From positions 1-64,000 of the forward strand of contig NZ_CP037899.1 of the NCBI RefSeq assembly GCF_007475525.1: DNA of 64,000 nt. Direction: 5' to 3'. Positions within the stretch are counted from its first letter, which is position 1, and each line of letters begins with the position of its first letter. The translations under genes were made by a program, and so were the position numbers. The notes under the pieces were generated by a model. The model did not search any database and had not been told where the DNA came from. It saw only the letters and a list, made by a program, of their open reading frames with translations. The DNA comes from Methylacidiphilum kamchatkense Kam1. GTDB lineage: Bacteria; Verrucomicrobiota; Verrucomicrobiia; Methylacidiphilales; Methylacidiphilaceae. Below are positions 3,939 through 58,164 of this stretch, in pieces.

Positions 3939-4865
3939 ATGGATGTAAGAGAAAAAAAAGAAACTGTTTTAAAACTTAAAAAAGAAAAGCGTGCTATTAT
4001 TTTAGCCCATAATTATCAGTTGCCTGAAATTCAGGAAGTAGCCGATTATATAGGAGATTCCCTAGGACTTTCTTTTAAAGCCAGGGATACTACGGCAGAA
4101 CGGATTGTTTTTTGTGGGGTTCATTTTATGGCTGAAACAGCCAAGATATTAAACCCAAATAGAAAAGTAATCCTTCCTGATTTGGAAGCGGGTTGTTCTC
4201 TTTCGGATACCTGTTCTTATGAAGAACTTCTTGAATACAAAATGAAGAATCCAGAGGTTTTTATTGTAGCTTATGTCAATACCTCTGCGGCGGTAAAATC
4301 ACTAAGTGATTGTATTTGTACTTCCGCTAATGCCATAAAAATCATCGAAAAAGTCCCTCTTGATAAGAAAATTCTTTTCGTTCCAGATCAAAATTTAGGT
4401 GAATGGGTACAAAGCAAGACAGGTAGACAGATGGATTTGTGGCCTGGAGAATGCTATGTGCATGTGGAATTTACGCATCAATCCCTCTTACATTTGAAAA
4501 AAAATTATCCCTCTGCTCCAATTGTGGCTCATCCAGAGTGTGAAAGAGCAGTAAGAATGCTTGCGGATGAGGTCTGTTCGACTGAACAGATGATCAGGTA
4601 TTGTAGAAACCATCCGGCTAAAACGTTTATAATTGTGACCGAAGTTGGAATGACGACTAGGCTGAAAAAAGAAATTCCAGAGAAGGATTTCATCCCGGCT
4701 TCGACACCCAGATGTGCTTGCTCTCAATGTAAATTCATGAAAAAGATCACCCTAGATAAGGTTATCTCTTCTCTTGAAAGGGATTATCCTGAAATTGATG
4801 TGCCAGTAGAAATCCGTAAAAAAGCTTTTATTCCTATTCAACAAATGTTGGAGTGGAGTGAATAA
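3939..4865 (+). CDS. nadA: Quinolinate synthase
   Basis: Condenses iminoaspartate with dihydroxyacetone phosphate to give quinolinate for NAD synthesis; cytoplasmic, with a [4Fe-4S] cluster. The 308 residues match the shorter NadA class. Conserved parts are the N-terminal ILAHNYQLPEIQEVADYIGD, GVHFMAETAKIL, the cluster cysteine in AGCSLSD, PEC near the middle and the C-terminal CSQCKFM. It starts 8 bases after lspA, so the two are likely cotranscribed. nadB and nadC are not in the window. Confidence 0.96.
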   Translation: MDVREKKETVLKLKKEKRAIILAHNYQLPEIQEVADYIGDSLGLSFKARDTTAERIVFCGVHFMAETAKILNPNRKVILPDLEAGCSLSDTCSYEELLEYKMKNPEVFIVAYVNTSAAVKSLSDCICTSANAIKIIEKVPLDKKILFVPDQNLGEWVQSKTGRQMDLWPGECYVHVEFTHQSLLHLKKNYPSAPIVAHPECERAVRMLADEVCSTEQMIRYCRNHPAKTFIIVTEVGMTTRLKKEIPEKDFIPASTPRCACSQCKFMKKITLDKVISSLERDYPEIDVPVEIRKKAFIPIQQMLEWSE

Positions 4866-4903: not shown

Positions 4904-5512
4904 GTGAAAAAGTTTGTTCTGGATACCAGTGTCTTTACAAATCCAGATATTACGCAACAATTTGGAGAGGACGATGCAACGGTTTTTTCAAATTTTCTTT
5001 CTTTAGCGACCAAAGCCGATGCGCAATTTTTTATGCCGTCGTCTGCCTATCAAGAACTGAAAATTATGAAAGGAGCCGGTTTTTTCTCTTCCGATTTTGA
5101 ATTGACTGTCCACATTCGTTCACCTCGAAAATTTACTCTTCTGATTCCTGGTTTCGTTCTTTATGATTTCATTGAAGAAATAAGGAAAAGAATTGATCAT
5201 GGGCTAAGGATAGCTGAGGAACATTTGAAACTTGCAGGACCCAATGGAGGAAGTCCCATTCCTTTCGATCAGTTGGTAAACCGCTTAAGAAATCGTTATC
5301 GTGAAGCCTTAAGACAAGGCATCCTTGATAGCAGGGAGGATGTTGATGTCATTCTTTTAGCTTATGAATTGGAAGGGATTTTAGTAACAGCTGATGAAGG
5401 CATGAAAAAATGGGCTGATAAGATGGGCATTGAAATAATGAATGCAAAATTTTTAAGAGATTGTTTAAAAAATCTAATCAAACCGGAGGGCTCCGGAGAG
5501 CCAGTTTCTTAA
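4904..5512 (+). CDS. PIN-domain RNA ligase partner protein
   Basis: A 202-residue PIN-fold protein resembling the family called RNA ligase partner protein, normally encoded beside Pab1020/Rnl3-type RNA ligases. PIN acidic residues are visible: Asp7 in FVLDTSVF, Glu in AYQEL, Asp in [16 protein letters not shown], and VTADEGM. PIN proteins are typically metal-dependent ribonucleases, so cutting or trimming RNA ends before ligation is plausible (inference). The start is GTG at 4904. Its 3' end overlaps the ligase on the other strand by 39 bases, an unusual convergent arrangement for partners. Confidence 0.85.
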
Positions 5513-6574
5513 AGTGTCGCTAGTCGAAGGAAAAGTCTTTTCAAATTCCAAAATCCAATAGTTGTTCTCTTGGTATAATTTCTTTATGATTACATGTTCT
5601 TGATGTCCTGGAATATGTTTGAGATGTTCGATAAAATATTCAGCATTTTTTGATTCTCTAAATCGACATCGAAAAAATCTGGAGGAGCGACCATGTTCTC
5701 GCACATTTTTGAGTACTTCTTTGATTCCACAAACAAACGCTTTTCCTAGTTTTTCTTCCCAGTTGTTTTCTTCGATCAGTCCCAGTTCTGTTAAAAACAA
5801 CACATACCGTAAGATTCTATCGATAAAATAGTTAGGGCTCACGTCTAAAATCTTATGAGAAACAACGGCAATATCGTTCAAATCAGAATTTGCTGTGACG
5901 TATTTTGCGCGCCGGCCAAAAGGCTCTTCTTTAAAAACAACTCCTTCTCTGTATTCGTTGTGAAGTGATAACAAAATTTTTTTTATTTGACTCAAGTCTT
6001 TAGGTTGGTTTTCAAAAAGGCCAAAATTCTTAACCGAAGGCAATGCATATCGACTAATAAGCTCGTGTTTCTCTCGTTCAGGCAGAAATTCCATAGTAGA
6101 ATCTTTTGCAATATCAAAAATAAAAAGCTTAATATCTTCAGAAACTAATGGGGTAGGTCCCTCAATGTAGGGACTTCCAGGTCCAGTAATTTCCCCACAT
6201 AAAACGAGATTGGGATGATCGATGAAAATCTCTACATTCAGAAGATCCAATATTCTGTCCGTACTGAATGGGCAGATAAATCCTCCTCGAGTAGCACAAT
6301 AAATTTGACCTTCATGGTGAAAAATCCGGACGTTATAACCGTCGACTTTTTCTTCCATCCAAAAGGAACCAGAAAATTGTTCTCGTAGTCCGGACTCCAA
6401 GGAGTTTATTCTTCCGATTTTAGGGAAACCTGCAATGATAAGATCTTTAAAAATAATGCTTCCCTCTGGCCATCCCCCATAGGCACTCGTCAATCGAGTA
6501 TAAGTCTTTTCGTGAAACTTCCCTTGGATACCTTTTTTTTTGGCAAGAATTTCTTCAATGAATAGTTCAGACAT
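5474..6574 (-). CDS. ATP-dependent RNA ligase, Rnl3 (Pab1020) family
   Basis: Covalent nucleotidyltransferase that joins or circularises RNA, a family best known in archaea and a few thermophilic bacteria. The 366-residue length fits. Motif I is [11 protein letters not shown] with the AMP-accepting Lys at residue 76, followed by [16 protein letters not shown], a LFIFDIA strand, EGVVFKEE (motif IV) and [10 protein letters not shown] (motif V). A helical C-terminal domain typical of Rnl3 follows. It is convergent with the PIN partner and shares 39 bases at the 3' ends. The cellular substrate is unknown. Confidence 0.9.
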
Positions 6575-6872: not shown

Positions 6873-8161
6873 ATGAAAATCTCAATCATAGGTTCTGGTT
6901 ATGTGGGATTAACAACAGGAGCTTGCTTTGCTGATATTGGTCATGAAGTCATTTGCATAGACAATGATTCAAACAAAATAAAATCCCTCCTTGCAGGAAA
7001 TATTCCTATTTATGAACCTGGACTGGAAGAGCTGGTCCAAAAAATGTTAAGAAGGGAACGCTTCATTTTACTGAGAGCATAGAGGAAGGGGTTGAAAAGA
7101 GTTTAGTCATTTTCATTGCAGTCCCTACACCTCCCTTGGAAGATGGCAGTGTCGACATGACTTATATTGAAAAGGTCGCCAGACAAATTGCTGCTGTTTT
7201 AAAAGATTATAGAGTCATTGTTGATAAAAGTACTGTTCCAGTCAAAACCGGGGAAAAAGTCTATCAAACTATCAAAAGATATAATAGCCATAATAGCGAA
7301 TTTGATGTCGTGAGTAATCCTGAATTTTTGAGAGAGGGTGTTGCCATCCATGATTTGCTTTATCCTGACCGTGTTGTAATTGGTGCTACCAGTGAAAGAG
7401 CTATTAAAATAATGAAAGAAGTTTACGCTCCTTTTAAGGCTCCGATACTCATCACAGATCTAAATTCCGCAGAACTTATCAAGCATGCCTCCAATAGTTT
7501 TCTTGCTTTAAAGATTTCGTATATCAATGCCTTATCAAGGATATGCGAGGCAGCTGGAGCCAATGTGCAAATGGTGGCAGAGGGAATGGGATTGGATCAC
7601 AGAATAGGCAAGCATTTTCTTAAAGCTGGCATAGGGTGGGGAGGGTCCTGTTTCCCAAAGGATGTGGCTGCTTTTATCAAAATCTCACAGGAATTGGGCT
7701 ACGATTTTAAGCTGCTCAAAGAAGTGTCTCAAATTAATAACGACCAAAAGGAAATATTTTTACGAAAAATTCGCAATGTTCTATGGGTTTTAAAAGATAA
7801 AAGGATTGGCCTTTTGGGCTTAGCTTTTAAAAACAATACGGATGATGTAAGATGTAGTGTTGCTATGGATCTTGCACGAGTTTTTTTGAAAGAAGGAGCA
7901 ATTGTGCAAGCTTATGATCCAAAAGCAATGAGAAAGGCAGAAGAAGTACTACCTTCGATTCATTATTGTTCCTCAGCTTTAGATGTCGCTGAAGAGGCTG
8001 ACTGCATAGTTATTGCAACGGAATGGGAGGAGTTTATAAATCTAGATTGGAAATCGATGAAATCAAAAATGATCAGCCCGATCATTTTTGATGGTAGAAA
8101 TCTACTCGACAAAAAAAAGATGATCGAAATGGGTTATCATTACGTTGGGGTTGGAAACTAA
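6873..8161 (+). CDS. ugd: UDP-glucose 6-dehydrogenase (one frame break)
   Basis: Oxidises UDP-glucose to UDP-glucuronate with NAD for envelope polysaccharides. The first 57 codons give the Rossmann start [20 protein letters not shown], then the frame is lost in an A6 run at 7039-7044. Adding one A restores [15 protein letters not shown] and a continuous 429-residue protein of normal family length. Later motifs are intact: [21 protein letters not shown], the catalytic region [12 protein letters not shown], and [13 protein letters not shown] read this as one gene with a sequencing error or a very recent mutation. purA starts 10 bases downstream. Confidence 0.88.
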
Positions 8162-58020: not shown

Positions 58021-58033
58021 TATTAAGTGATCC

Positions 58034-58124
58034 ATGGGGAGCCTAATGGCTGAGAGGTTCTTCTCTATTGATCGAGGAGAACGACCCTATGAACCTGATC
58101 CGGATAATGCCGGCGGAGGGAAAG
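58034..58124 (+). promoter_or_regulatory. TPP (thi-box) riboswitch
   Basis: The conserved TPP aptamer elements are present: GGGGAGCC, GGCTGAGAGG, GACCC, GAACCTGATCCGGATAATGCC and GGCGGAGGGA. TPP binding would shut off thiC. This sits 64 bases before the thiC ATG, with a sequestering hairpin in between. Confidence 0.95.
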
Positions 58125-58164
58125 GATATGCACTGTTCTTATGCTCTTATCTCCTGTTCGGCTA

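Follow-up and report, generated by a model that had tools for sequence, protein, structure and literature searches.

Introduction

What a bacterium might do with a nuclease of the PIN-domain type encoded next to an RNA ligase, and why two such genes should meet tail to tail with their ends written into the same DNA, are questions raised by a locus of Methylacidiphilum kamchatkense Kam1. The genome is a single contig of 2.2 Mb (NZ_CP037899.1), whose first 64,000 nucleotides, beginning near dnaA, form the stretch analysed here and referred to as the window. The features at issue are:

3939..4865, + strand: nadA (NF006878, 426 bits), upstream of the HARP gene on the same strand
4904..5512, + strand: putative HARP (PIN-domain protein-only RNase P family), 202 aa, beginning with GTG and closed by TAA at 5510-5512
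5474..6574, - strand: predicted Rnl3-type ATP-dependent RNA ligase, 366 aa, beginning with ATG at 6574 and closed by TAG, which appears as CTA at 5474-5476 of the + strand
5474..5512, both strands: tail-to-tail overlap of 39 bases, both stop codons included, codon registers coinciding
5483..5502, inside the overlap: GC hairpins with T-rich tails on both strands, a candidate bidirectional terminator

An original prediction, based on the letters of the window and its open reading frames, had described a convergent pair sharing 39 bases, and these coordinates bear it out. Elsewhere in the window, the UDP-glucose 6-dehydrogenase gene (6873-8161, + strand) has a frameshift near an A-run at about 7047, where three relatives are single-frame, which is either a sequencing error or a recent pseudogene, and a TPP riboswitch lies at 58025-58139 (+ strand, 66 bits).

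Identity of the two proteins

The plus-strand product is, as far as homology can tell, a HARP, a member of the protein-only RNase P family, which is characterised by removal of the 5' leaders of pre-tRNAs and by assembly into dodecamers. It exceeds the cut-offs of two models, TIGR03875 or "RNA ligase partner" (199 bits; cut-off 95.3) and NF003344 (297 bits; cut-off 241), with a full-length match, and solved HARP structures, 53-56% identical to it, are recovered at E-values from 3e-64 to 7e-39 (7og5, 3e-64; 8ssf, 5e-64; 7f3e, 6e-60). The original prediction had correctly placed the PIN gene in the known partner family of the ligase but missed both its HARP identity, despite such close solved structures, and the already published link between HARP and Rnl3 (Seshadri and Gopalan, mBio 2025, PMC12153264). 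The catalytic aspartates D7, D142, D146 and D164 (reference positions D7, D138, D142 and D160/161 in Aq880) are all kept and are invariant among six aligned HARPs, while R129 and R133 of the spike helix, equivalent to the Aq880 residues R125 and R129 required for activity (PMC8266387), occur in every one of the 80 HARPs that could be aligned. These aspartates and arginines are shared with the Aquifex aeolicus HARP itself (Aq880; 7f3e, 8kd9), which is 53% identical to the window protein and needs its C-terminus for full RNase P activity (PMC8266387). According to the account given in PMC12153264, the M. infernorum HARP formed oligomers and did not cleave pre-tRNA in vitro, though recombinant HARPs may have been misfolded (PMC10941002).

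The minus-strand gene is predicted to encode an Rnl3-type RNA ligase, in agreement with the original assignment and its placing of the motif I lysine at K76. The protein matches TIGR01209 over residues 7-364 (310 bits; cut-off 136.9), and its structural matches are 3qwu (molecule named DNA ligase; E = 3e-90), PAB1020 (2vug, 5e-59) and 5d1o (1e-36). K76 sits in EEKVDGYN (KxDG) and, with E210-G211, K215 and K224 (motifs I and IV/V), is invariant in an alignment of 71 ligases; so is the final aspartate (D366 here), whether or not the ligase is linked to a HARP, and the length of the C-terminus is constant. Motifs are held in common with the Rnl3 ligases PAB1020 and MthRnl, the former matched over nearly the whole length, whereas the window ligase is nearest to 3qwu, ends in the aspartate invariant among bacterial ligases and is encoded beside a HARP. 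As a family, Rnl3 ligases are characterised by circularising RNA with ATP while acting as homodimers. Overall ligation by MthRnl needs its C-terminal 17 residues (PMC3514331), and archaeal Rnl3 circularises RNAs (PMC12153264). The window genome also encodes RtcB, which ligates RNA ends of a different chemistry. Identity between the HARPs of the window and of Methylacidiphilum sp. Yel is 98%, and against other Methylacidiphilum species, where synonymous sites are unsaturated, dN/dS is 0.04-0.17 for both genes, purifying selection that marks both as genuine.

Co-occurrence and the other RNase P

Co-occurrence of the two families, which the original prediction presupposed, is close to complete. 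Both score above cut-off in the same six of 387 Verrucomicrobiota genomes, all Methylacidiphilaceae, and the ligase is present in 13 of 13 genomes of that family. Across bacteria it was found in 77 of 80 HARP genomes, beside HARP in 61 and elsewhere in 16 of the remaining 19 (in one of these below cut-off). Some HARP contigs among the 19 are short, so that a few pairs may in reality be linked; the 16 unlinked pairs nevertheless indicate that adjacency is dispensable.

The window genome also has the ordinary enzyme, with rnpA and rnpB (rnpB, 234.8 bits). RNase P RNA was detected in 32 of the 49 genomes searched, Methylacidiphilum included, and in none of the sampled Aquificaceae among them, which sets the window HARP apart from that of Aquifex in its genomic setting. 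The rnpA/rnpB enzyme very probably matures tRNAs in this lineage, which would leave HARP free for some other RNA. The published candidate substrate is C/D-box sRNA (PMC12153264), an idea that needs fibrillarin. Among the same 49 genomes none had fibrillarin above cut-off, and there were weak sub-threshold matches only; C/D-box machinery was therefore rejected for these genomes, the idea does not fit bacteria, and such a substrate is unlikely here.

Orientation and overlap across genomes

A survey of gene-pair orientation, suggested with the original prediction as a way of checking it, gave a uniform result. All 61 linked bacterial pairs are convergent, with no tandem or divergent arrangement, although the 61 are not independent events. 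In 42 the genes overlap and in 17 they are separated by 8-88 nt; the other two (L074 and L078), still convergent, have gaps of 839 and 1070 nt. The overlaps occur in all three phases. At seven loci (L027, L055, L035, L031, L047, L053 and L042) the HARP frame continues antisense through 105-1077 nt of the ligase gene, well beyond its usual end, the phase-0 antisense frame staying open. Within Methylacidiphilaceae the pair is convergent in 13 of 13 genomes with overlaps of 39, 42 or 54 nt, so the 39 bases shared in the window are not a chance arrangement; moreover, these bases show two differences from each of two diverged congeners, against 22-25% in the rest of HARP (P = 0.005 and 0.001). Surroundings are far less stable: a flanking gene within 4 kb is held in common in 56 of 1515 comparisons of loci between lineages (11 of 21 within Methylacidiphilaceae and 114 of 276 within Aquificota). 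Since neighbours change while the pair persists, HARP and ligase constitute a conserved unit. Archaeal orientation was read from just two pairs, both on haloarchaeal megaplasmids (L122, 3286-3408; L123, 3309-3408), which are unlike the bacterial ones in being divergent, with starts about 100-120 nt apart. A mobile or viral origin was rejected, as HARP relatives are absent from viral contigs and plasmid matches are haloarchaeal only.

A shared position of overlap

In 31 genomes (30 loci and the window) a single homologous HARP codon, Leu191 (CTA) in the window, reads on the opposite strand as the ligase stop. The codon is CTA in 22, TTA in eight and TCA (Ser) in one; a pair locked in this manner must carry one of these three, so the evidence lies in the fixed alignment position and not in the codon itself. 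Of the 50 HARPs without this lock, a single one has TTA or CTA at the position: L054, on a contig that stops shortly after HARP. Genomes with the lock come from Verrucomicrobiota, Aquificota and Proteobacteria, plus one Tectomicrobia bin, and some of them are metagenome bins with uncertain labels. On alignment the position of overlap is homologous across lineages. Because the ligase ends in Asp whether linked or not, it is the HARP tail that runs into the ligase gene. The locked state requires at least five changes on the HARP tree (unlinked rows ignored) and at least four on the ligase tree; many deep forks are open in these trees, which leaves room either for a single origin followed by losses or for more than one origin. 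For the overlap itself we infer common descent.

The published description of the HARP-Rnl3 pair concerns these two families as well, in bacteria mostly as neighbours on opposite strands ("typically bidirectional"), but its main text mentions neither an overlap, nor a constant tail-to-tail direction, nor a codon position in common (PMC12153264). As far as the literature examined shows, the uniform convergence, the 42 overlaps and the stop position shared at Leu191 are new, and an earlier report is possible.

Transcription at the locus

The candidate terminator within the overlap seems limited to the window and its nearest relatives, the only places where overlap hairpins are present, and on the HARP strand the hairpin does not exceed shuffles; the scan count is at chance level (three found, 2.8 expected). 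A bidirectional terminator as a general feature was rejected, being near chance over 57 loci and not conserved in other lineages. On the upstream side, 38 nt separate the nadA stop from the start of HARP, both genes lying on one strand in what looks like an lspA-nadA-HARP run retained within Methylacidiphilum; the nadA-HARP order holds in species of this genus but is absent from the family's other two genera. HARP may hence be co-transcribed with nadA as the last gene of the run, which casts doubt on the earlier assertion that the two convergent genes would each be regulated separately. The ends of the HARP and ligase transcripts would overlap as antisense.

A cut-and-join model and its alternatives

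RNase P cleavage, and with it that by HARP, yields 5'-phosphate and 3'-OH termini, the very ends that Rnl3 ligases join. End processing by the nuclease followed by joining fits this chemistry and, as a fair inference, is the simplest reading of the pair. HARP, as a PIN metallonuclease, would cut structured, tRNA-like RNA to 5'-phosphate and 3'-OH ends, which the Rnl3 ligase would join with ATP, mostly intramolecularly, yielding circular or resealed RNA. In this lineage HARP would act on RNA other than tRNA, with rnpA/rnpB covering the tRNAs, and bacteria would have retained the two genes tail to tail as one unit dating from one or a few ancestral events, locked where functional C-termini share DNA. 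We consider that cutting by HARP and joining or circularising by Rnl3, in a pair kept tail to tail in this way, has somewhat better than even chances of being right. Joint action of the two proteins would be its core, and several points weigh against it. The ligase is retained even in Aquificaceae, which rely on HARP as their sole RNase P, so the pair need not have a dedicated task outside tRNA; shared selection could produce the common distribution with no direct cooperation; and both the in vitro inactivity of the M. infernorum HARP on pre-tRNA and the 16 unlinked pairs tell in the same direction. A stronger version, in which the pair is a cut-and-join system dedicated to an RNA class outside the C/D-box sRNAs, and in which selection on expression, and not history alone, holds the tail-to-tail layout with its overlap at one homologous codon in different phyla, strikes us as decidedly unlikely.

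Shared selection is the essence of the rival in which HARP stands in as RNase P under stress or as a backup, and the ligase independently mends broken RNA, both kept for the same harsh conditions and not necessarily for the same molecule. Retention of every RNase P residue in HARP agrees with it, as do the 16 genomes with unlinked genes and the HARP knockouts in two archaea that left growth unaffected (PMC12153264; PMC10941002). The near-complete co-occurrence, the adjacency that outlasts changing neighbours and the matching end chemistry speak for a closer connection, and two separate jobs are in our judgement rather unlikely. A toxin-antitoxin-like pair, in which the ligase mends RNA damaged by HARP, was raised in PMC12153264 and draws on the PIN/VapC-like fold of HARP, but the total lack of tandem operons among the linked pairs, of viral contig matches and of plasmid matches beyond haloarchaeal replicons, together with the normal growth of a Thermococcus kodakarensis ligase knockout (PMC12153264), renders it scarcely credible.

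For the layout taken by itself, it is probable that the convergent overlap is a historical lock without a regulatory role, in which the genes came to lie tail to tail, each C-terminus has a function and any break in the shared DNA would impair both proteins. The constant length and invariant final Asp of the ligase C-terminus, linked or not, point this way, as do the want of a conserved terminator and a minimum of only four to five changes of the locked state on the trees; such a lock is compatible with the cut-and-join model. Nonetheless, the gapped pairs, up to the two widest, are still convergent and overlaps occur in every phase, so the lock alone fails to explain orientation. Antisense control would add that the 3' ends of the convergent transcripts pair and that nuclease and ligase mRNAs limit each other, balancing cutting with joining. 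Universal convergence and tight spacing speak for it, but gapped pairs exist, the two haloarchaeal pairs are divergent and terminator structure is not conserved, which makes such control very unlikely.

Implications

These observations bear on the reasons for which prokaryotes retain a protein-only RNase P alongside the ribozyme form. A ligase suited to precisely those ends that HARP-type cleavage produces, held in one fixed layout across bacterial phyla that are without C/D-box machinery, points to a bacterial answer other than the published C/D-box model. Methylacidiphilaceae, which hold both types of RNase P, are suited to testing it where HARP is probably non-essential for tRNAs.
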